Of a stretch of 64,000 nt of DNA, positions 1 through 10,834 are shown one piece after another. The position numbers and the translations under genes were made by a program. Positions within the stretch are counted from its first letter, which is position 1; every line of letters begins with the position of its first letter. The notes beneath the pieces are model-generated. The model ran no database searches. It saw nothing but the letters and a program-made list of their open reading frames with translations, and was not told the origin of the DNA. The stretch is from Mesorhizobium loti (GTDB taxonomy: Bacteria > Pseudomonadota > Alphaproteobacteria > Rhizobiales > Rhizobiaceae): assembly GCF_002858745.1 (NCBI RefSeq), contig NZ_PJRO01000001.1, positions 620,001-684,000 of the forward strand. The letters run 5' to 3'.

Positions 1-1479
1 GGCTTCGGCGATGAAGTCGGCGGCCCGCTTCTTGCGCTTGGAACGGCGCACCAGCCGATCACCCAGAATGTCCTGTTCGGCTACAACGACCAGTGCATCG
101 GTCTCGAAGCCGGTTTCCAGCGGCAGAACGGCCAGACCCGCTTCGCCCGGCGCCAGCTTTGCCGCCTCGGCCAGTGACGCGACTTGCTTGATGTTGCCGA
201 GATGATGCTCGGCCAGGATCTGACCGAGCCGGTCGAGCGAGCCTTCAGTCCAGCCGGCGATGACGACCCGGCGCTTGGCGGCGCGCTCTTCGGCGATGTG
301 TTTCACCGCGACGTCGAAGACATTGGCGTTGGGATCGGCGCGTTCCTCGGCAAAGGAGCGGCCGGCACGCGAACCGGCATGGAAGACCTTGCGGCCGCCG
401 GCATCCGGTGCATCAAACGGCGTGAGTTCGATCTGCTCGCGCTCTCCTGTCGCCGCCTTCACATCGTCTGGTGCCAGATACATCAATGCCGGCGCCACCG
501 GCTTGTAGGGCACCGCATCCTTGAGCGCCGCGTCGGCCTGTTTGCGCCGTGCCTCGTAGTGGTCGAGGATGAGCTCGTGCCGCTCGGCCAGCGCTTCTTG
601 TGCCAGATGATCAAACACCACCGGGGCGTCCGGCAGATAGTCGAACACCGTTTCCAGCCGCTCGTAGAAGAAGGGGAGCCAGTGTTCCATTCCGGCGAAA
701 CGACGCCCTTCGGAGACCGCTGCATAAAGTCCATCGTCGCGTGACGGTGCACCGAAAGCCTCGATGTAGGAGCGACGGAATCGGCTGATGGTTTCGGGCG
801 TCAACGCCACTTCGCTCATCGCCTGCAATGTCATCGACTTGCGCTGGCCAGTGGTGCGCTGGCTGGCGACATCGAAACTGCGGATCGATTCCAGCGTGTC
901 TCCAAAGAAGTCGAGGCGCAGCCCCTCGCTCCAGCCGGGCGCATAAAGATCGAGGATGCCGCCACGTACGGCGAACTCGCCGACATCGCGCACGGTCGGC
1001 ACGCGTTCGAAGCCGGAATTCTCCAGCTGCGAAATCAGCTTGTTCATGTCGACCTGATTGCCGGGCCTGGCATGGAAGGTCTGGGCTTCCAGCAATTCGG
1101 CAGGCGGCATGCGCTGCAGCAACGCATTGACGGTGGTCAGCACAATGGCACGGTGCGGCTTCCTGGCCAGCACGACCATCGCCGCCGCCGCATCAAGCCG
1201 GCGCGCAGCCGCATCGGAGCCCGGCGAAACCCGATCGTAGGGCAGGCAGTCCCAGGCCGGCAGTTCCAGCACCGGCAGGCCAGGTGCGGCAAAGGCAAGC
1301 GCCTCGACGATGGCGGGCAGGCGCTGGCCGTCACGAGCGACGAACAGCAGTGGCCCGTCCGGCGCGATTTCCCTCGCCGCCTGCACCAGCGCGAAGGCTT
1401 CGAAGCCGTCGGCAACGCCATCGACGATATAGGAGGCGGCGCGACCCTTGGGCAGGCCGATTTTGGGTATCAGGCTCAT
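1..1479 (-). CDS. mfd: Transcription-repair coupling factor Mfd, N-terminal part (cut by window edge)
   Basis: Mfd is a DNA translocase that removes RNA polymerase stalled at lesions and recruits UvrA. The ATG at 1479 opens a frame that stays open to base 1, giving about 493 of the usual ~1,150-1,200 residues, so the translocase motor lies outside the window. The visible part is the UvrB-like N-terminal module: an early region around residues 45-75 with the short run PAWDCLPYDRVSP, then FERVPTVRDVGEFAVRGGI and ILDLYAPG around residues 165-190, as in UvrB and Mfd. The gene starts 7 bases after the sdhE stop, so the two are probably co-transcribed. The 3' end is missing only because of the window edge. 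Confidence 0.95.
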   Translation of the reverse strand, partial: MSLIPKIGLPKGRAASYIVDGVADGFEAFALVQAAREIAPDGPLLFVARDGQRLPAIVEALAFAAPGLPVLELPAWDCLPYDRVSPGSDAAARRLDAAAAMVVLARKPHRAIVLTTVNALLQRMPPAELLEAQTFHARPGNQVDMNKLISQLENSGFERVPTVRDVGEFAVRGGILDLYAPGWSEGLRLDFFGDTLESIRSFDVASQRTTGQRKSMTLQAMSEVALTPETISRFRRSYIEAFGAPSRDDGLYAAVSEGRRFAGMEHWLPFFYERLETVFDYLPDAPVVFDHLAQEALAERHELILDHYEARRKQADAALKDAVPYKPVAPALMYLAPDDVKAATGEREQIELTPFDAPDAGGRKVFHAGSRAGRSFAEERADPNANVFDVAVKHIAEERAAKRRVVIAGWTEGSLDRLGQILAEHHLGNIKQVASLAEAAKLAPGEAGLAVLPLETGFETDALVVVAEQDILGDRLVRRSKRKKRAADFIAEA

Positions 1480-1486
1480 GGTCGTT

Positions 1487-1789
1487 TCAGAATTCGAGCG
1501 TTTGGCGTGATGCCAGAATCTTGTGCAGGACCGGCAGGTCGATGTCGCCGGGAACCGGCTCGCCGCCGGTCAGCCAGGGCATCAGCACCGTGTCGGAGAT
1601 TTCGAGGAGCCTTTCATATTGGTCGATCTCGTCGGCGGTCAAGCCGGCGATCTCGCGCTCCGCGAAGTTGCCAAGGATGAGGTCCATCTCCTTCATGCCG
1701 CGATGCCAGGAGCGGAACAGGAGCTTCTTGCGGTGTGGGTCCAGTTCGTTGTTCGCCAGTCTTGCGTTCGATCGTGTCGTGGCGGTCAT
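1487..1789 (-). CDS. sdhE: Succinate dehydrogenase assembly factor SdhE (DUF339 family)
   Basis: SdhE is a small cytoplasmic protein that helps attach FAD covalently to the succinate dehydrogenase flavoprotein. The 100-residue product carries the family signature RGMKEMDLILGNFAE (the RGxxE motif) near residues 29-43, and its length is normal. The frame is open upstream to 1861, but that extension does not resemble the family, and the ATG at 1789 gives the expected N-terminus. It lies immediately ahead of mfd on the same strand. In related rhizobia recG usually faces this gene. Here the divergent side instead holds the RiPP-like locus starting at 1983. Confidence 0.9.
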   Translation of the reverse strand: MTATTRSNARLANNELDPHRKKLLFRSWHRGMKEMDLILGNFAEREIAGLTADEIDQYERLLEISDTVLMPWLTGGEPVPGDIDLPVLHKILASRQTLEF

Positions 1790-1893
1790 GGCGGTGGCAT
1801 CCCTCACTTGCACGGCGCATATAGCGTGGATAGGCGGCGGTGTCAGCCTGTTCGCGACCAAGGCCCACTCACGGCTCCGCCGCTGGTGTTCTC

Positions 1894-1915
1894 GACTGTG
1901 ATTGATCTCACAGTC
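1894..1915. promoter_or_regulatory. Perfect Crp/Fnr-type palindrome in the sdhE / RiPP-precursor intergenic region
   Basis: The core TGTGA-N6-TCACA spans 1897-1912 and matches the classical Crp half-site arrangement exactly. Symmetry extends to 8-base arms at 1894-1915. It is centred about 78 bases upstream of the precursor-peptide ATG at 1983 and about 115 bases from the divergent sdhE start, so it could act on either side. Which Crp/Fnr-family protein binds, if any, is inference. Confidence 0.55.
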
Positions 1916-1982
1916 GCACGCTCGGCTTCGTGCTCAGATTTCCGGTGCACTCAAGCACCTGGTCACATGAGGGAGCATGATT

Positions 1983-2237
1983 ATGGTCAAAGCAGTCACC
2001 AAAAGTCCCGTCAAGACCACTGCCGCCAGCCTGAAAAGCACCGATGTAAAGTTCGGCGACAGTTTTCTCAGCGATCCGTCGAAAGCCTTGAAAGCCAAGG
2101 GCCTGGTCATTTCAGATGCCGAGGCCGCCCGGCTCTCCCGCGAAGTCGCAAAGCTGAGAACGCGCCCCGGCGGCGCACTCACCGGCTCCGAGGCAGCGGA
2201 AACCGAAGTCACAGTTTCCGTCGGCGTCAAATTCTGA
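1983..2237 (+). CDS. Putative RiPP precursor peptide, 84 aa
   Basis: This small gene lies directly upstream of a radical SAM RiPP maturase and is probably its substrate. An ATG at 1977 is in frame, but the purine-rich site GAGGGAG (1969-1975) sits 7 bases from the ATG at 1983 and only 1 base from the earlier one, so 1983 is chosen. The peptide starts Lys/Thr/Ser-rich. Around residues 28-41 it has SFLSDPSKALKAKGL, which recalls the DPxxAL...G pattern of nitrile-hydratase-like RiPP leaders. A double glycine at 63-64 (TRPGG) is followed by a 20-residue tail ending EVTVSVGVKF, with alternating Val/Thr/Ser. The leader/core reading is inference and the family was not recognised by name. There are no Cys residues, so lanthionine or sactipeptide chemistry is unlikely. 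Confidence 0.65.
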   Translation: MVKAVTKSPVKTTAASLKSTDVKFGDSFLSDPSKALKAKGLVISDAEAARLSREVAKLRTRPGGALTGSEAAETEVTVSVGVKF

Positions 2238-2361
2238 CGACGACGGAAAGGTCGGCTGCGGTATACCGCCGTCGATCCGGCATGCGTTCATCGCGCAAAG
2301 CCCTCCGCGCCATGCGTACCGACGCGGAGGGAGTTTCCCCGACAACAAACAGAGGTGCACC

Positions 2362-4215
2362 ATGTTCGAGACGGGCTATGAAACAGCCGACATCCTTGTG
2401 GTCGTACCGCCTTTCGCGAGCCCGGATCGACCGGCTCTCGGTCCGCACGTGATTGCCGCGCGCGCAGCACAGGCCGGCTTCGAAGCCAGAGTGCTTTACG
2501 CCAACCTCTCATTCGCCAGCCGGATCGGCGTTCGTCGTTACCAGAAGCTCTGCGGAACCCCGACCGGACTGCTGATCGGAGAGCGGATCTTCGCGCGCGC
2601 CATGTTCGGAACCAAGGCGCATGGGCGCATGGAACCCGAAGTCGAATGCGCCATTGCAGCCGCGACCGCCCCATCAAGCGTCACGCTCGAGTGGCTCCAG
2701 CAAACCGCCAGGCAATGGGCCGACGATTTCTCCGCGGCACTGGCGGCGATGCCCGCAACCATTATCGGTTTCAGTACCGTCTTCGAACAGACTCTGGCTG
2801 CACTGTCCATCGCAAAACGAACCAAGAAAGCGGCGTCGGACAAGATACTTCTGCTTGGCGGCGCCAACGTCGACGGCGTCATGTCGGAAGGCATCCAGCC
2901 GCTGGCGGATTCGATCGATCATATCTTTTCCGGCGAGAGCGACGTTTCCTTTGTCGATTTCCTCACCAGCCTGCGTGGTTCAAAATCGGACAATGAGAAA
3001 ATCATCCGCGGCGAACCGCTCGAGGCCCTCGATGACTCGCCGATGCCCGATTATGACGACTACTTCGCGCAACTGGCGCAGACCGTAGCCAGCGATGTCC
3101 ATCCCGACGGTCTGCGTCCGGAAGAAATCTGGCTGCCTTACGAAACAAGCCGTGGCTGCTGGTGGGGTGCAAAGCAGCATTGCACCTTCTGCGGGCTGAA
3201 CGCCAACGGCATGCAGCATCGCCAGAAATCGGCGGAAAAGGCGTTCACCGAACTCAATGAGCTTGTTACGCGGCACAAGTCGACGAGGATCATGATGGTC
3301 GACAACATCATGCCGCACTCCTATTTCTCGACCCTGCTTCCCGAACTGGCGAAAGCCGAGAACAAGGTCGGCATCTTCTACGAACAGAAGGCCAATCTTT
3401 CGTTCCAGAAGATGAGGCTGCTAAAATCCGCCGGGGTCGAACGCATCCAGCCCGGCATCGAGTCGCTTGCCACCTCGGTGTTGAAACTGATGCGCAAGGG
3501 CAGCACGCTGAAGATCAACCTCGACTGCCTGCGCTTTGCACGTGCGCTTGGCATTGAAGCGGCCTGGAACCTGCTGACCGATTTTCCGGGCGACGAAGAC
3601 GCAGCCTATGAGGTGACAGCAGACCTGATTCCGTTGCTGCAGCACCTGCAGCCGCCGGTCGGGGTCGGCCAACTCAGCATCGAACGATTTAGCCCGTATT
3701 TCGACAGACAAGACGACTACAAGATCACCAACGTCCGGCCCATTCCGGCCTACAGCCTGGCGTTCCCGACGCTCGAACGAGCCGATGACATCGCCTACCA
3801 TTTCATCGGCGACTATGATTCCAGCCTTCGCCGCAGACCGGACCTGGCCCGCCGGCTGGGTGATGGTGTCGAGGCCTGGAAAGCTGCCTGGGCCCCGGAC
3901 CGCGTCATGCCTGTCCTGTGTGTGCTCGACCTGTCACCCGGTCGCTACTTGCTGGTCGATACGCGCGGATGCGCCCACGTGGACGCCGAAATCCTCAACG
4001 AGGCGACGATGTCGGCGTATCTTTCCGGCGTCGGCGAACAAGCAGTGCTCCGGCGCGCGCTCGATTGGGGCTACCTGCATGATGATTATGGATTGCTGCT
4101 GCCGCTGGCGACGGCAACGGAACATCTGCTGGAAAGATTCGAATCGCCACGCGGCCATACCGCCGTGTTCGAGCGGCAGGAGCCCGGCCCCGCAAGGGCC
4201 GTACCCCGTCGGTAA
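2362..4215 (+). CDS. RiPP maturation radical SAM enzyme, putative C-methyltransferase type
   Basis: The 617-residue enzyme probably modifies the peptide encoded just upstream. Residues 261-278 read ETSRGCWWGAKQHCTFCG. The three cysteines (266, 274, 277; C-x7-C-x2-C) hold the [4Fe-4S] cluster, and the GCWWG-KQHCTFCGLN block is the signature of 'RiPP maturation radical SAM protein 1' (TIGR03975-like). The N-terminal ~200 residues form a Rossmann-like region (ILVVVPPF, later ILLLGGANVDG) as in B12-binding radical SAM enzymes, which include C-methyltransferases. A conserved C-terminal domain follows. AGAGGTG at 2351-2357 is a good ribosome site. The gap from the precursor is 124 bases. There is no transporter, protease or immunity gene alongside. 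Family membership is firm; substrate and reaction are inference. Confidence 0.88.
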   Translation: MFETGYETADILVVVPPFASPDRPALGPHVIAARAAQAGFEARVLYANLSFASRIGVRRYQKLCGTPTGLLIGERIFARAMFGTKAHGRMEPEVECAIAAATAPSSVTLEWLQQTARQWADDFSAALAAMPATIIGFSTVFEQTLAALSIAKRTKKAASDKILLLGGANVDGVMSEGIQPLADSIDHIFSGESDVSFVDFLTSLRGSKSDNEKIIRGEPLEALDDSPMPDYDDYFAQLAQTVASDVHPDGLRPEEIWLPYETSRGCWWGAKQHCTFCGLNANGMQHRQKSAEKAFTELNELVTRHKSTRIMMVDNIMPHSYFSTLLPELAKAENKVGIFYEQKANLSFQKMRLLKSAGVERIQPGIESLATSVLKLMRKGSTLKINLDCLRFARALGIEAAWNLLTDFPGDEDAAYEVTADLIPLLQHLQPPVGVGQLSIERFSPYFDRQDDYKITNVRPIPAYSLAFPTLERADDIAYHFIGDYDSSLRRRPDLARRLGDGVEAWKAAWAPDRVMPVLCVLDLSPGRYLLVDTRGCAHVDAEILNEATMSAYLSGVGEQAVLRRALDWGYLHDDYGLLLPLATATEHLLERFESPRGHTAVFERQEPGPARAVPRR

Positions 4216-4227
4216 GGCTTGTTTTCA

Positions 4228-4437
4228 GTGCGTCCTTCGAGGCTCACCCACAAAAGACCGCGGCGTGCTTTCAGCCGATGTGCGGGCTCGCACCTCAGGA
4301 TGAGGGAGGTCGGTGCGGTTCCCAGTCTCTTTCAGAACGAGGAAGCCTTGCGCGACCGTCCTCATCCTGAGGTGCGAGACCGCACTGTGGCTGGAGGCAT
4401 TGCGTAGTCTTTTGCGGGCGAGCCTCGAAGGACGCAC
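4228..4437. repeat. Nested inverted-repeat element (rhizobial intergenic palindrome)
   Basis: Outer arms 4228-4249 and 4416-4437 are 22-base inverted copies with one mismatch (GTGCGTCCTTCGAGGCTC core). Inner arms 4287-4305 and 4360-4378 are a perfect 19-base inverted pair (CTCGCACCTCAGGATGAGG). No coding potential is apparent inside. Sequences of this type recur between genes in Rhizobiales. It fills most of the 315-base gap between the radical SAM gene and recG, and may act as a transcription stop or mark an insertion boundary. Confidence 0.8.
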
Positions 4438-4476
4438 CAAAATCCTATCCGCCGCAACGGAGAGATAGCGACAACA

Positions 4477-4515
4477 GGAACCGGCCGCATATGCCTTGCA
4501 CATGCGGCCGGTTCC
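4477..4515. repeat. Strong hairpin just upstream of recG
   Basis: The arms GGAACCGGCCGCAT (4477-4490) and ATGCGGCCGGTTCC (4502-4515) are perfect 14-base inverted copies separated by 11 bases. No T-run follows on the plus strand, so a simple intrinsic terminator is unlikely. It lies 16 bases before the recG ATG and could affect the leader or be bound by a protein. Confidence 0.6.
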
Positions 4516-4530
4516 GCGCTTATTGCGGGC

Positions 4531-6639
4531 ATGCGCCCTTCCCTGCTCGATCCGCTTTTCTCCCCCATCACGACGCTCGCAGGCGTCGGATCGAAAGTCG
4601 CCCTGTTGATCGAACGGGTTCTGCCGGTGGACCTCGGCGACCGGCAAGCGCGCGCAGGCGATCTTCTGTTCGTACTGCCCAATTCAGTCATCGACCGCCG
4701 CAATCGCCCAGGCATCGCCCATGCCACCGAGGGCGCGATTGTCACGCTGGAGGTTCGCATTGATCGCCACCAGCCGCCGCCACGCGGCAACAAGTCGGTG
4801 CCTTACAGGGTCTATGCGCATGACGACACCGGCGAGATCACGCTGACCTTTTTCCACGCCCATGCCAGCTATCTCGAAAAGGCAATGCCCGAGGGCGAGC
4901 AGGTGGTGGTTTCGGGGCGCATGGAATGGTTCAACGGCCGGCCGAGCATGGTGCATCCCGACCATATCGTACTGGCAAGCGAAGCAGGCAATCTGCCGCT
5001 GGTCGAGCCGGTCTACCCGCTCACCGCCGGCCTGTCCTCCAAGGTGCTGCGCCGTGCCATCGGCCAGGCGCTGGGGCGTGTGCCCGCCTTGCTGGAGTGG
5101 CAGGACGCCGCGTTCATGCGGCGTCATACCTTCCCGTCATTTGCGGCAGCACTGGAGCGGGTGCACAACCCGGAAAATCCGGTCGACGCGCAGCCGGAAA
5201 GTGCTGCCTGGCGCCGGCTTGCCTATGACGAATTCCTTGCAGACCAGGTATCCCTAGCGCTGGTACGCTCGCGCATCCGCAAGCTGTCAGGCAGACCGCT
5301 CGACGGCGACGGCCGGATCATCGAACGGCTGCGCACCGCTCTGCCCTATTCGCTGACCGGATCGCAGGAAACGGCACTCGCCGAGATCCTCACCGATCTT
5401 GCAACGCCGGAACGCATGCTGCGGCTACTGCAGGGCGATGTCGGCTCCGGCAAAACGGTGGTGGCACTGCTGGCCATGGCGCGCGCAGTCGAGGCAGGCG
5501 GCCAGGCAGCGCTCATGGCGCCGACCGAAATCCTGGCGCGCCAGCATCTTGCCACCATCGCACCACTGGCCGAGAAAGCCGGGCTGAAGACAGCCATCCT
5601 CACCGGCCGCGAAAAGGGACGAGAGCGAACCGAGACCTTGGCCAGACTTGCCGACGGCTCGATCGACATCGTGATCGGCACGCATGCCCTGTTCCAGGAG
5701 ACAGTGTCGTTCCAGAACCTGGTCTTTGCGGTGATCGATGAACAGCACCGTTTCGGTGTGCACCAGCGGCTGGCCATCACCGCCAAGGGTGACGCCCCCG
5801 ATATGCTGGTGATGACGGCGACACCGATCCCGCGCACGCTGGTGCTGACCGCCTTCGGCGACATGGACGTTTCGAAACTCACCGAAAAACCAGCGGGACG
5901 GCAGCCGATCCGCACCGTCACCCTGCCGCTGGAACGGCTGGACGAGCTGGTTGGCCGCATTCGCGACGCGGTTGCGGAAGGCCAGAAAATCTACTGGATC
6001 TGCCCGCTGGTGGAGGAATCCGAAGAGATCAAGCTGATGTCGGCTGAAGATCGCTTTGCCTCTCTCAAGCCGGTGTTCGGCAACCGGCTCGGGCTGGTGC
6101 ATGGTCGCATGAAAGGCGCCGAGAAGGACGAGGCCATGCGTGCCTTCAAGGAGGGCGAAACCCGCGTGCTGATCGCCACCACGGTCATCGAAGTGGGCGT
6201 CGATGTGCCGGACGCCACCATCATGGTGATCGAACACGCCGAGCGCTTTGGTCTTGCACAGTTGCACCAGTTGCGCGGCCGCGTCGGACGCGGCTCGAAA
6301 CCGTCGAGCTGCGTGCTGCTCTACAAGGACCCGCTCGGCGAGACGGCGAAACGGCGGCTCTCGGTGATGCGCGAGACCGAGGACGGCTTCGTCATCGCCG
6401 AAGAAGACCTCAAACTGCGCGGCGAAGGCGAGCTTCTCGGCACGCGTCAATCGGGCACGCCGGGTTTCCAGGTGGCGCGCATCGATGCTCATGCCGACAT
6501 GCTGGAGGCCGCGCGCGACGACGCGAGGCTGATTCTATCGCGCGATCCCGAACTGCAGGACGAGCGCGGCGAGGCGCTGAGGCTGCTGCTCTATTTGTTC
6601 GGGCGCGACGAGGCGGTGCGGCTCTTGCGTGCCGGCTGA
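4531..6639 (+). CDS. recG: ATP-dependent DNA helicase RecG
   Basis: RecG is a superfamily 2 translocase that remodels stalled replication forks and Holliday junctions. The 702 residues are family length. An N-terminal wedge/OB region covers roughly residues 1-200. The motor carries Walker A GDVGSGKT (302-309), the DEQHR box (403-407), a TATPIPRTL motif III and a QLRGRVGRG motif VI. The ATG at 4531 gives the usual MRPSLLDPLF start. Its 3' end overlaps the convergent DUF502 gene by 49 bases. In related genomes recG sits next to sdhE-mfd; here about 2.7 kb containing the RiPP locus separates them. Confidence 0.97.
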   Translation: MRPSLLDPLFSPITTLAGVGSKVALLIERVLPVDLGDRQARAGDLLFVLPNSVIDRRNRPGIAHATEGAIVTLEVRIDRHQPPPRGNKSVPYRVYAHDDTGEITLTFFHAHASYLEKAMPEGEQVVVSGRMEWFNGRPSMVHPDHIVLASEAGNLPLVEPVYPLTAGLSSKVLRRAIGQALGRVPALLEWQDAAFMRRHTFPSFAAALERVHNPENPVDAQPESAAWRRLAYDEFLADQVSLALVRSRIRKLSGRPLDGDGRIIERLRTALPYSLTGSQETALAEILTDLATPERMLRLLQGDVGSGKTVVALLAMARAVEAGGQAALMAPTEILARQHLATIAPLAEKAGLKTAILTGREKGRERTETLARLADGSIDIVIGTHALFQETVSFQNLVFAVIDEQHRFGVHQRLAITAKGDAPDMLVMTATPIPRTLVLTAFGDMDVSKLTEKPAGRQPIRTVTLPLERLDELVGRIRDAVAEGQKIYWICPLVEESEEIKLMSAEDRFASLKPVFGNRLGLVHGRMKGAEKDEAMRAFKEGETRVLIATTVIEVGVDVPDATIMVIEHAERFGLAQLHQLRGRVGRGSKPSSCVLLYKDPLGETAKRRLSVMRETEDGFVIAEEDLKLRGEGELLGTRQSGTPGFQVARIDAHADMLEAARDDARLILSRDPELQDERGEALRLLLYLFGRDEAVRLLRAG

Positions 6640-7343
6640 GGCAAGGTGCCGGCCGGCGGATTGCCGAGGTCGATCAGCCGTCCATCCGGTCCCTTGACCT
6701 TTTTCCTGGGGTCCGGCGCAACGAGGCCGGCCGAGACGATGAGGCGTGCGCCTTCCTCGATGGTCATGTCTAGCATGACGATCTCGGATTTGCGGACATA
6801 CATCAGGAAACCGGTGGTCGGGTTCGGTGTACAGGGCATGAAGACACCGATCAGCTGATCGCCCTCGACATCGAGTTTCTCGTTGATCTCGGTGTGCTTT
6901 TCGCCGGCGACGAAGACCAGCGACCAGACGTCCTTGCGCGGATATTCGACCAGGCCGACCTCCCGGAACATCTCGCTCTTGTTCGAGAGCACGGTCTCGA
7001 AGATCTGCTTCAGCGAACCATAAATGCCGCGGACCAGCGGCATGCGCCCGAGCAGGCGTTCACCGAAGGTGACGATGGCACGGCCGACAATGTTGGCGGC
7101 AAGGAAGCCGATCAGCGTGATCAGTACCAGCGCAACGATGAGCCCGAAACCCGGGACCGGGACCGGCAGGTAGGTATCGGGATTGTAGCGTGCCGGGATG
7201 TAGGGTTTGACCCAGGAATCGACCCAGCCAACGAACGACCAGGCAATGTAAGCGGTGATCGCCAACGGCGCGCAAACAACAAATCCGGCGAGGAAATAAT
7301 TCCTCAGCCGGGTGATCGCTGATGTCTTCGGTGTGTCCGACAT
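6591..7343 (-). CDS. DUF502 family inner-membrane protein
   Basis: A 250-residue membrane protein of unknown function, widespread in proteobacteria. It has two N-terminal transmembrane segments (about residues 13-35 and 60-85), then the conserved DUF502 domain with RMPLVRGIYGSLKQI and MPCTPNPTTGFLMYV. The C-terminal tail is Pro/Lys-rich and cytoplasmic. The ATG at 7343 (MSDTPKTS) is preferred; an in-frame GTG at 7385 would add 14 residues. It converges on recG and overlaps its end by 49 bases, a common arrangement for this pair in rhizobia. Confidence 0.88.
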   Translation of the reverse strand: MSDTPKTSAITRLRNYFLAGFVVCAPLAITAYIAWSFVGWVDSWVKPYIPARYNPDTYLPVPVPGFGLIVALVLITLIGFLAANIVGRAIVTFGERLLGRMPLVRGIYGSLKQIFETVLSNKSEMFREVGLVEYPRKDVWSLVFVAGEKHTEINEKLDVEGDQLIGVFMPCTPNPTTGFLMYVRKSEIVMLDMTIEEGARLIVSAGLVAPDPRKKVKGPDGRLIDLGNPPAGTLPQPARKSRTASSRPNK

Positions 7344-7435
7344 TCCGTGCTCGGGATTGCCATGCTCTAGGATTGTGCGCTGCACCTACCTTAGAGCATC
7401 AACACGAATGGGCGACAATCTGACTCTCTGCTGGA

Positions 7436-7480
7436 GCATGATCTTTTCCGAAAACCGGTTCCCACTTTTCGGGATCATGC
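7436..7480. repeat. Rhizobial palindromic element
   Basis: An imperfect palindrome opening with GCATGATC (7437-7444), closing with GATCATGC (7473-7480) and containing TTTTCCGAAAACCGG. It belongs to the same general class as the tandem pair at 27135-27247. It lies between glmS and the DUF502 gene. Confidence 0.75.
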
Positions 7481-7501
7481 CCTGTCGCGACAGCCTGGCC
7501 G

Positions 7502-9325
7502 TCACTCCACCGTAACCGATTTGGCCAGGTTGCGCGGCTGATCGACATCGGTGCCCATGAAAACTGCCGTGAAATAGGCCAACATCTGGACAGGAAGCGC
7601 GTAGAGGATCGGCGCGATGATTTCCGGCACGTCCGGCAGGACGATGGTGTCGATGGTCTTCACTGTCGACTTCTCGGCGCCCTTCTTGTCGGTGATCAGA
7701 ATGATCTTGCCACCGCGTGCCGCCACTTCCTGCATGTTCGAGACGGTTTTCTCGAAGATGCGGTCGTATGGGGCGATAACGACGACAGGCATGTTTTCGT
7801 CGATCAGCGCGATCGGACCGTGCTTGAGCTCGCCCGCCGCATAACCTTCGGCATGGATATAAGACAGTTCCTTGAGCTTCAGCGCGCCCTCGAGCGCCAG
7901 CGGGAAGTTGGTGTCGCGGCCAAGATAGAGCACATCGCGGTGATGGGCGAGATCGCGAGCGACTTTCTCGATCTGCTCCTCCAGCTTGATGACCTGGCTG
8001 GCCAGGCGCGGCGCCTCGGCGAGCTGCTTGACCAGCTTTGCCTCCTCCTCAGGCGAGATATGGCCGCGGGCAACACCCGCGCGCACGGCAAGTGCGGCCA
8101 TCACCGAAAGTTGGCAAGTGAAAGCCTTGGTCGAGGCGACGCCGATCTCCGGCCCCGCCAGGATCGGCAGGACAATATCGGCCTCCCGCGCCATGGTCGA
8201 TTCGCGCACATTGACGACGACGCCGATCGGCACGCCTTCCTTGCGGCAGTAGCGCAACGAGGCAAGCGTGTCGGCCGTCTCACCGGACTGGGAAATGAAA
8301 AGCGCGGCGCTGTTCTTCGACAGCGGCATTTCGCGATAACGGAATTCCGAAGCGATATCGATATCCACCGGCAAGCGGGCGAGACGCTCGAACCAGTATT
8401 TGCCGACCAGGCCGGCGAGATAGGCAGTGCCGCAAGCCGAGATCGCCAGCCGCTCGATCTTGGCGAAATCCCACGGCAGGTCCAGCGCCTTGGCCTTGCC
8501 ATTGGTGAAATCGATGTAGTTGCCAAGCGTGTGGGAGATGACTTCCGGCTGCTCGTGGATTTCCTTGTGCATGAAGTGGCGATGGTTGCCCTTGTCGACC
8601 AGGAACGAGGTGCCGATCGACTGCTGGCGCTTGCGCTCGACCTTCTTGCCTTCCATGTCGAAAATGACGATCTCGTTGCGGCGCACCACTGCCCAGTCAC
8701 CATCTTCAAGATAGGTAATGGAGTTGGTGAACGGCGCCAGCGCGATGGCGTCCGAACCCAGATACATCTCGCCCTCGCCATGGCCGACGGCGAGCGGTGG
8801 ACCGTTGCGGGCGCCAATGATCAAATCCTCGTCGCCCTTGAACATGATGGCGAGTGCGAAAGCGCCTTCGAGGCGCTTCAGCGCGTTATGGGCGGCCTCC
8901 ACCGGCTTGGCACCGCGCGCCATTTCACGCGAGACCAGATGGGCAACGACTTCAGTGTCGGTCTGCGAGGAGAACTCGTAGCCATCCGCCGAAAGCTCGG
9001 TACGCAGCTCGGCAAAATTCTCGATGATGCCGTTGTGGACGATCGCCACGCCGTTGGAAAAATGCGGATGCGCATTGGTTTCGTTGGGAACGCCGTGCGT
9101 CGCCCAGCGGGTGTGGCCGATGCCGATGGTGCCATCGAGCGGCTCGGCCTGCAGCCTGCGCTCCAGATTGACCAGCTTGCCTTCAGCGCGGCGCCGCGAC
9201 AGTTCGCCATGTTCGATCGTGGCAACGCCTGCTGAATCGTAGCCGCGATATTCCAGCCGCTTCAGCGCATCGACGATCAGCGGCGCTACCGGCGAATGGC
9301 CGACAATTCCAACAATTCCGCACAT
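7502..9325 (-). CDS. glmS: Glutamine-fructose-6-phosphate aminotransferase (isomerizing)
   Basis: GlmS makes glucosamine-6-phosphate from fructose-6-phosphate and glutamine, the entry to UDP-GlcNAc, peptidoglycan and lipid A. The 607-residue protein begins MCGIVGIVG, giving the N-terminal Cys nucleophile after Met removal. The glutaminase domain (about 1-240) has GIGHTRWATHG. Two SIS domains follow, with SACGTAYLAGL, SQSGETADTLAS and the C-terminal ...DQPRNLAKSVTVE typical of GlmS. It lies 159 bases downstream of glmU on the same strand, so two steps of one pathway are adjacent. Confidence 0.97.
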   Translation of the reverse strand: MCGIVGIVGHSPVAPLIVDALKRLEYRGYDSAGVATIEHGELSRRRAEGKLVNLERRLQAEPLDGTIGIGHTRWATHGVPNETNAHPHFSNGVAIVHNGIIENFAELRTELSADGYEFSSQTDTEVVAHLVSREMARGAKPVEAAHNALKRLEGAFALAIMFKGDEDLIIGARNGPPLAVGHGEGEMYLGSDAIALAPFTNSITYLEDGDWAVVRRNEIVIFDMEGKKVERKRQQSIGTSFLVDKGNHRHFMHKEIHEQPEVISHTLGNYIDFTNGKAKALDLPWDFAKIERLAISACGTAYLAGLVGKYWFERLARLPVDIDIASEFRYREMPLSKNSAALFISQSGETADTLASLRYCRKEGVPIGVVVNVRESTMAREADIVLPILAGPEIGVASTKAFTCQLSVMAALAVRAGVARGHISPEEEAKLVKQLAEAPRLASQVIKLEEQIEKVARDLAHHRDVLYLGRDTNFPLALEGALKLKELSYIHAEGYAAGELKHGPIALIDENMPVVVIAPYDRIFEKTVSNMQEVAARGGKIILITDKKGAEKSTVKTIDTIVLPDVPEIIAPILYALPVQMLAYFTAVFMGTDVDQPRNLAKSVTVE

Positions 9326-9484
9326 AAAAGCTGCCCCGATTCCTCTTGGCGAACACCCGGCCGCTGTTTAGTCGACCGCTGCCACCCACGACAATCACAT
9401 TGCGTTTCGTCCAGTCTTTTGACTTAGACTTATTCGGCCGCCTCCTATGACAGGCTTGCCACGAAGTCCAGCCGTAAGAAATCC

Positions 9485-10834
9485 CTACTTCTTGGCAGCA
9501 GAGGCACGGCGCTCACGCAGTTCCTTGCCTTTGCCGGGCAAGATTTTCTGACGCGCACGACCAAATGCCAAAGCATCTTCGGGGACATCTTCGGTAATCA
9601 CACTTCCCGAAGCGATGTAGGCGCCGTCGCCAAGCTTGATGGGCGCCACCAGCGACGAATTCGAACCAACGAAAGCGCCGGCGCCGATGTCGGTGAAGAA
9701 CTTGGAGTAACCATCATAGTTGCAGGTGATGGTACCCGCGCCGATGTTGGCGCCTGCCCCGACACGGGCATCGCCGATATAGGTCAGGTGGTTCACCTTG
9801 GCACCGGCCTCGATCCTTGCGTTCTTGACCTCGACGAAATTGCCGACCTTGGCCTTGGCTGCAAGATCGGCGCCTGGCCGCAGGCGAGCATAAGGGCCGA
9901 TGTCGGCGTTGTCGGCAACGGTCGTGCCTTCCAGATGGCTGAAGGCATGCACCTTCACGCCACACGCGATCTTCACACCCGGACCAAAGAAGACATTGGG
10001 CTCAACCACCGTGTCCTGGCCGATCTCGGTGTCGTGCGAGAAATAGACAGTTTCCGGCGCGATCAGCGTGACGCCGCCAAGCATCGCCTCGCGGCGGCGG
10101 CGCTTCTGCCAGATCTCCTCGGCTTCTGCGAGTTCCGCGCGGTTGTTGATGCCGAGCGCGTTTTCATATCCAGCCTCGATGGCGACGACATCGAGCCCCT
10201 TGGCGTTGGCGATCTCAACGATGTCGGTCAGATAATATTCGCCCTTGGCGTTGCCGTTGCCGACGCCGTCCAGCAGACCGAGCGCGTGATTGCCGGAGAC
10301 AGCCATCATGCCGGCATTGCAAAAGCCGATCTTGCGCTCTTCGTCGGTACAATCCTTTTCCTCGCGGATCGCGGTGAGCTTGCCACCCTTTTCGATCAGC
10401 CGGCCATAGCCAGCCGGGCTTGGCGGACGGAAGCCGATGACCACGACGGCGGCGCCCTCGGCGAGCTTCGCCCGCGCCGCACCAAGAGCAGCGGCATCGA
10501 TCAGTGGCGTGTCGCCGAACATGACGAGGACGTCGTCATACCCTTTGGCCATGGCTTCGCGGGCGGCCAGCACCGCATGCGCCGTGCCCAGGCGCTGTTC
10601 CTGAACGAATGCGCCGGCACGAGGCGCGAACTTCTCCGCCGCCTTGCGCATCTCGTCAGCGCCATGACCGATCACCAGAGCAATGTCCGTAGCGCCAGCA
10701 GTCTCCGCAGCCTTCACCACATGCGCCACCATCGGCAGACCGGCAATTTGATGCAGGACCTTCGGCAGCGCGCTTTTCATGCGCGTGCCTTCGCCGGCAG
10801 CGAGGATGATGGACAGGCAGGTTCTGGATGTCAT
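9485..10834 (-). CDS. glmU: Bifunctional UDP-N-acetylglucosamine pyrophosphorylase / glucosamine-1-phosphate acetyltransferase
   Basis: GlmU acetylates glucosamine-1-phosphate and uridylylates the product to UDP-GlcNAc. The N-terminal nucleotidyltransferase shows LAAGEGTRM and [11 protein letters not shown] near residues 11-35. From about residue 250 there is a left-handed beta-helix of hexapeptide repeats ([42 protein letters not shown]) carrying acetyltransferase activity. The 449-residue length is normal. It is transcribed toward glmS, and a palindromic element lies just upstream at 10873-10917. Confidence 0.97.

Follow-up and report, generated by a model that had tools for sequence, protein, structure and literature searches.

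The locus described here lies in a 64,000-nucleotide stretch of the Mesorhizobium loti genome (RefSeq assembly GCF_002858745.1, contig NZ_PJRO01000001.1, positions 620,001 to 684,000 of the forward strand), referred to below as the window and belonging to a genome of 6.4 Mb (G000). Mesorhizobium is a soil bacterium and a relative of the root-nodule symbionts. The window harbors a compact module (Table 1), flanked on the left by mfd and sdhE on the minus strand and on the right by recG (4531–6639, plus strand), where the names of these three flanking genes were given by eye and from an initial annotation of the sequence. The module carries a small gene for a putative precursor of a ribosomally synthesized and post-translationally modified peptide (RiPP), followed by a gene for a B12-type radical S-adenosylmethionine (SAM) enzyme, and both open reading frames (ORFs) were confirmed in the arrangement that the initial annotation had proposed. 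Also in agreement with it, no protease, transporter or immunity gene was recognized by eye among the ORFs listed for positions 1–10000 of the window, and PADLOC gave no match. Comparisons were extended to samples of the genus group (146 genomes), the family (297), the class (385) and the phylum (398), among which the gene order sdhE, peptide, enzyme, recG was observed in all four carrier species (G000, G005, G094 and G165), with the order and orientation of the pair kept at one site behind one palindrome. Judged from these sequences, there is good support for reading the module as a conserved RiPP locus of two genes, one of them for a predicted C-methylase of the type of PoyC, an enzyme of the polytheonamide pathway.

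Table 1. Positions of the module and its features in the window.
Feature	Position	Strand	Details
Module	1850..4530		in 4 species; missing from the sdhE-recG site of G109
Operator-like palindrome GACTGTGA-N6-TCACAGTC, perfect arms	1894..1915		61 bp before ATG 1977
Putative RiPP precursor	1983..2237	+	84 aa (86 aa from ATG 1977)
Codons of the invariant tail ETEVTVSVGVKF	2199..2234	+	Val at residues 78, 80, 82, 84
Intergenic spacer	2238..2361	+	can form stem CCCTCCGC/GCGGAGGG; CCTTCCGC/GCGGAAGG in G165
B12-type radical SAM enzyme, TIGR03975 'RiPP maturation radical SAM C-methyltransferase'	2362..4215	+	617 aa
Cx7Cx2C cluster motif CWWGAKQHCTFC	3157..3192	+	residues 266-277
C-terminal domain, possibly leader-binding (RiPP recognition element (RRE)/PqqD-like), shortened in the clade	3895..4137	+	residues 512-592

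The small ORF (1977–2237, plus strand) is open for 86 codons and is a real gene, being set beyond chance by low ratios of nonsynonymous to synonymous substitution (dN/dS of 0.05–0.15 over six pairs from the four species) and by its occurrence at the same site in all four, so that its pairing with the enzyme is conserved and random codon drift is not seen. A putative ribosome-binding site is conserved in the four species; its sequence AGGGAG (1970–1975) ends 7 nt before the ATG at 1983 and just 1 nt before that at 1977, and the 84-residue form beginning at 1983 is therefore favored as the better start, whereas the peptide residue numbers used here follow the 86-residue frame. The predicted precursor layout comprises a leader with a weak match to the NHLP clan, the residues RPGG and then ALTGSEAAETEVTVSVGVKF, in which Val78, Val80, Val82 and Val84 alternate with Thr, Ser and Gly. 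Differential conservation was observed along the peptide: the last 12 alignment columns of the four species contain 8 identical, 4 synonymous and 0 nonsynonymous columns, and the nonsynonymous columns elsewhere comprise 8 in columns 1–20 and 4 in columns 63–75. The predicted model of the precursor was poor (mean predicted local distance difference test (pLDDT) of 52.7) and was not used, and when its profile was compared with PDB, 3 rows were returned with a best E of 0.82.

The precursor family had gone unrecognized in the initial annotation, which stands insofar as no match rises above a curated cut-off; the best curated matches nevertheless point, tentatively, to the NHLP clan, with NF038399 at 22.5 bits (cut-off 40) and TIGR04509 at 16.8 bits (cut-off 34). 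NF038399 represents the Os1348 family of the clan, and the copies of the four species score 22.5, 21.8, 20.6 and 19.9 bits against it, none reaching 40. The NHLP leader model TIGR03793 (proteusin) was not among the 2 families listed for the peptide at E up to 1. A tentative description of the peptide as NHLP-like is adopted here.

The enzyme matches TIGR03975 at 535.5 bits against a cut-off of 281.85 (hmmscan, residues 11–554, the match ending at profile position 558 of 606), which bears out the family named in the initial annotation from the cluster motif, 'RiPP maturation radical SAM protein 1'. The NCBIfam models that follow describe other B12 radical SAM enzymes and score far under their own cut-offs, and Pfam Radical_SAM scores 48.5 (cut-off 29.5). 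The Cx7Cx2C spacing was present in 25/25 aligned sequences, the window enzyme included; it is an unusual spacing, reported for the polytheonamide and bottromycin methylases (PMC5682303), and PoyC, which has this motif, is reported to have been shown to methylate Val (PMC11285071; Val also in PMC5682303). The enzyme is likewise under purifying selection, with pairwise dN/dS of 0.07–0.09 (six pairs, four species). The AlphaFold2 model, built with 19 sequences, has a mean pLDDT of 85.6, and its best matches are to the B12 radical SAM fold: the first 13 Foldseek rows against PDB are OxsB, TsrM, TokK, MgmA and CysS, all B12 radical SAM proteins, and VIA-align places OxsB at Z 23.3 (root-mean-square deviation 3.2 over 383 residues) and AprD4 at 19.8. 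A literature search gave no match for older names of the TIGR03975 family, and in a search on Mesorhizobium the genus is unnamed among the matches listed. One study took a highly expressed cluster called by a TIGR03975 rule as a RiPP cluster (PMC12350317).

The C-terminal domain of the enzyme differs between the carriers and their relatives. The spacing from R535 to L582 is 46 residues in 4/4 carriers versus 63–72 in 21/21 relatives, among which are Streptomyces, Niallia, an Anaerolineae metagenome-assembled genome (MAG) and an Anammoxibacter MAG, so that the domain is 17–26 residues shorter in the carriers and departs from the usual TIGR03975 layout, which lies outside the model's cut-off definition. 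The missing piece falls in a region whose strand and helix order is winged-helix-like in the predicted model. C-terminal leader-binding fusions are mentioned for proteusins by the authors of RRE-Finder (PMC7470986), and the domain is possibly an RRE, an identity offered as a lead: Pfam PqqD (PF05402) matches in 1/14 relatives (E 0.0037), besides single weak NCBIfam rows, and PqqC/D and PqqD chains appear at E 0.55 and 0.63, a weak signal amid many unrelated rows. The VIA-align list, which barely covers the C-terminal domain, holds no PqqD chain.

The palindrome upstream of the peptide gene was found at one place per genome in 4/146 genomes of the genus group, which are exactly the four carriers, and a control pattern was found in 0/146. 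Its spacer differs in G165 and the arms are unchanged. The inner TGTGAN6TCACA resembles the Escherichia coli CRP consensus; this inner pattern occurs at 5 places in G000 (control 1), occurs once in the window and is present in 4/100 shuffles. The palindrome is probably the site of a dedicated DNA-binding regulator, although no regulator gene was recognized within the module.

The distribution of the module is narrow. Enzyme matches at E up to 1e-30 were detected in 16/146 genomes of the genus group, of which 4 are close (86–100% identity) and the remaining 12 share 28–43% identity over the matched part, while 8/385 genomes of the class sample, its own included, match at E up to 1e-50. The peptide was observed in the four carrier species; a first search of relatives gave 2/61. 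Its profile returned 4/297 genomes of the family sample at E up to 0.01, strong only in its own genome, and 15/398 of the phylum sample, strong only in its own genome and G094, with no match to plasmids at E up to 1. Every weak row (E 3.4e-4 to 0.009) falls in an open frame of at least 324 aa, and these rows were left out of account. A wider precursor family was rejected, as the profile gave nothing convincing beyond the carriers.

The site itself indicates that the module was inserted, as the initial annotation had suspected on seeing an acquired module. Genome G109 aligns with positions 1301–1849 and 4531–4718 of the window, with only 33 bp between these parts, and thus lacks the intervening stretch (about 1850–4530), and in 26/26 non-carriers among the 30 best-scoring recG loci of the 146 genomes, the 1.5 kb upstream of recG contain sdhE. 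In the tree of these 30 recG loci G109, although it lacks the module, falls with the four carriers in one clade (support 0.996), within which G109 and three carriers exclude G165 (0.999), and G109 stands beside those three and not among them (0.845). One gain before the split of the five-species clade and one loss in G109 explain this most simply; transfer of the module among relatives may also have taken place. A recent horizontal arrival was rejected, because divergence across the module runs roughly in step with that of the flanks, a qualification of the suspected acquisition. An older foreign origin fits the mildly lower GC content, which is 0.58 in the peptide gene and 0.61 in the enzyme gene versus 0.65 in mfd and recG, with third-position values of 0.69 and 0.73 versus 0.78 in recG. 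As a separate observation, identity to G005 (L029) is 92–97% over the end of sdhE, the palindrome, the peptide gene and the start of the enzyme gene (window about 1401–2800), with 90% in the block 2201–2400, and then 78–92% to about 4200, a step of the kind that might be seen as after local recombination.

The locus is probably a minimal two-gene RiPP system in which a PoyC-type B12 radical SAM enzyme C-methylates the Val-rich tail of the peptide, and the C-methylation favored in the initial annotation is kept as the leading hypothesis, since the closest characterized enzymes with the Cx7Cx2C motif are C-methyltransferases. In its favor, the precursors beside three other TIGR03975 enzymes (S. 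meliloti, R. leguminosarum and G100) likewise have Val-rich ends. The product of the small gene would be a precursor that serves as the substrate, its leader NHLP-like and its C-terminal tail short, fixed and Val/Thr-rich; the Cx7Cx2C motif would hold a [4Fe-4S] cluster, at which SAM would be cleaved to give a 5'-deoxyadenosyl radical; this radical would abstract hydrogen at a beta-carbon in the tail, most likely that of one or more of Val78, Val80, Val82 and Val84; and methyl transfer from methylcobalamin would then produce tert-leucine-type residues, each adding 14 Da. Production would probably be governed by the dedicated regulator at the upstream palindrome, and the leader would be cleaved. 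We infer tail methylation as the most likely chemistry.

Several points weigh against this interpretation. Pfam B12-binding scores 15.2, below its cut-off of 32.1, and the non-B12 enzymes MiaB and RimO align to the whole model at Z 16–17 (VIA-align). Calls of the TIGR03975 type may mislead: in a metagenome study, antiSMASH clusters called by DUF692 and TIGR03975 rules were inspected manually and then dropped, being judged likely false positives (PMC9426513). The match of the leader to the NHLP clan is below cut-off, and a profile comparison (hhalign) with three NHLP-clan-like sequences from TIGR03975 loci gave a probability of 27.7% (E 6.4e-4), the expected segment being aligned; NF038399 matches of like strength are common, occurring in 88/385 genomes at E up to 0.001 with 0 above cut-off, and for this reason the NHLP placement is held as tentative. 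The C-terminal shortening could reflect altered substrate handling, and no exporter or leader peptidase was found. Lastly, adjacent peptides of other TIGR03975 loci lack a Val-rich end (Ruegeria ...VIRPRCA, Anaerolineae ...SGTGGKS, S. globosus ...SASNVKD), so that tail composition is no rule.

The same precursor and enzyme might carry out another reaction, either methylating a different residue, Thr and Phe among the candidates, or forming, for example, a crosslink by radical chemistry that adds no methyl group. TIGR03975 is a subfamily-level model, radical SAM enzymes of differing reactions share the fold (OxsB, AprD4), and the three bottromycin C-methylases are reported to target Phe, Val and Pro (PMC11285071); the closest characterized enzymes reported with the motif are, however, C-methyltransferases for which Val is a common target, and we consider a different reaction unlikely.

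As to the role of the product, an invariant tail together with the lack of a recognized exporter, C39 peptidase or immunity gene points to a conserved function, internal or in signaling, and away from a toxin shaped by diversifying selection. Peptidase_C39 (PF03412) had no match in the genome, where the same search, which covers this peptidase type only, was positive in 8/14 control genomes; a search for a PoyD-type epimerase gave no match in the genome and also matched 0 control genomes, which leaves it uninformative. A speculative extension, to which we give a low probability, is that of a RiPP never exported, with a clade-specific leader family, a methylase that lost part of its leader-binding domain in parallel, a fixed tail, action in the cell or at the membrane, and a regulator with a single site. 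Also unlikely is a secreted bacteriocin of the NHLP/Os1348 type, exported and cleaved by proteins encoded far from the locus: the Os1348 family gives the best match, a weak one, whose founder is linked to antibiosis (PMC7726476), and RPGG could be a Gly-Gly site, but the C39 result just given, the absence of a recognized immunity or transport gene beside the peptide, and a tail invariant in four species, as against NHLP cores described as hypervariable (PMC2887384), all argue against it.

That the small ORF encodes an unrelated small protein, perhaps a regulator, with the substrate of the enzyme located elsewhere, appears improbable. The link between peptide and enzyme is one of gene arrangement, and the possible leader-binding domain of the enzyme is reduced in the clade; yet both genes are adjacent and co-oriented behind one palindrome in every carrier, G109 lacks both, and in Ruegeria and an Anaerolineae MAG a small NHLP-clan peptide lies directly upstream of a TIGR03975-family enzyme. 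A spurious ORF, conceivable from its shortness and from the lack of a match above any curated cut-off, was rejected as next to impossible, being contradicted by the dN/dS over six pairs and by the ribosome-binding site and palindrome conserved in four species.

Among the other features of the module, the stem of the intergenic spacer is in the minimum-energy fold of 3/4 species, and the best fold of the window's own spacer pairs differently. A scan for promoters and terminators found none. After the enzyme gene lies a 220-bp inverted-repeat element (window 4223–4442) with 90-nt arms that are 81% complementary; as the other three carriers align over just 34–48 of the 200 bases at 4201–4400, this species seems to have acquired the element later. 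The ORFs of 51–143 aa in the gap between enzyme and recG overlie this element and the start of recG.

Beyond the initial annotation, the analysis adds the nature of the palindrome, the shortened C-terminal domain, the invariant core, the two-gene layout elsewhere and the finding of no C39 peptidase in the genome. The best-known radical SAM C-methylases with Cx7Cx2C work in pathways of many enzymes, as for polytheonamide and bottromycin, and a locus of one peptide and one enzyme with a 12-residue invariant tail provides a small test case for how such an enzyme picks Val positions; the naturally shortened domain provides another, for whether the C-terminal domain is needed in holding the leader; and, given the invariant tail and absent exporter, the locus would exemplify the retention of a modified peptide for use within the cell.

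Compared with known systems, the polytheonamide C-beta-methyltransferases PoyC and PoyB share Cx7Cx2C, the B12 radical SAM architecture and Val as the likely target (PMC5682303, PMC11285071), a likeness drawn from the reported motif and architecture; polytheonamide requires several enzymes including the epimerase PoyD, whereas the Mesorhizobium locus has one enzyme and no epimerase recognized beside it. Os1348 of Pseudomonas sp. Os17, the founder of the weakly matched family, is likewise a precursor-like protein, of 85 aa, and its loss lowers antibiotic activity (PMC7726476), but it is accompanied by an acetyltransferase, a peptidase-like protein, a SagB-type dehydrogenase and transporters, and 'radical SAM' occurs 0 times in that text. 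Rhizobial plasmid clusters (S. meliloti pHRB800, R. leguminosarum pRLb1) share a TIGR03975 enzyme, which is 33% identical to the Mesorhizobium enzyme in S. meliloti, and Val-rich C-terminal tails (...VVTVVVVVV and ...VVVAAVLV, respectively), but differ in Nif11 leaders and an amino acid epimerase, with four annotated precursors in S. meliloti; the Nif11 precursors lie at L105:824-3101 (S. meliloti, three sequences read) and L107:2716-3072 (R. leguminosarum, one).

Further TIGR03975 loci were observed with diverse neighbors. In G100 of the genus group a 112-aa ORF (L031:7892-8230) ending in ...GVGIGVVW lies directly upstream of the enzyme, matches nothing in NCBIfam at E up to 0.05 and is possibly another undescribed precursor; in three genus genomes (L033, L034, L035) the enzyme adjoins a 525-aa protein and one of about 1535 aa, the latter peptide-synthetase-like by eye from its opening residues; in Microvirga massiliensis an ORF of 307 aa (L021:1239-2162), separated by several genes from the enzyme downstream, begins like an NHLP leader (29.8 bits, below cut-off) and continues into a long proline stretch and unreadable or masked bases; and tandem TIGR03975-type enzymes occur in an Anammoxibacter MAG (L023:6022-10033) and a Defluviicoccus MAG (L024:5995-10062). 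Parallels in layout are the Anaerolineae MAG, where the peptide matches NF038399 at 63.2 bits, and a plasmid of Ruegeria sp. B32 (NZ_CP081107.1), where an 85-aa peptide lies directly upstream of the enzyme, the two being annotated as 'Os1348 family NHLP clan protein' and 'RiPP maturation radical SAM C-methyltransferase', and the feature table, which may be incomplete, shows 7 entries within 4 kb, none of them an exporter or protease. The Ruegeria enzyme is 30% identical and has a C-terminal domain of usual length, and its peptide passes the NF038399 cut-off (41.3 versus 40) and has no Val-rich tail. The two-gene layout is thus already known elsewhere, and what differs in Mesorhizobium is the leader, the fixed tail, the operator and the shortened domain.

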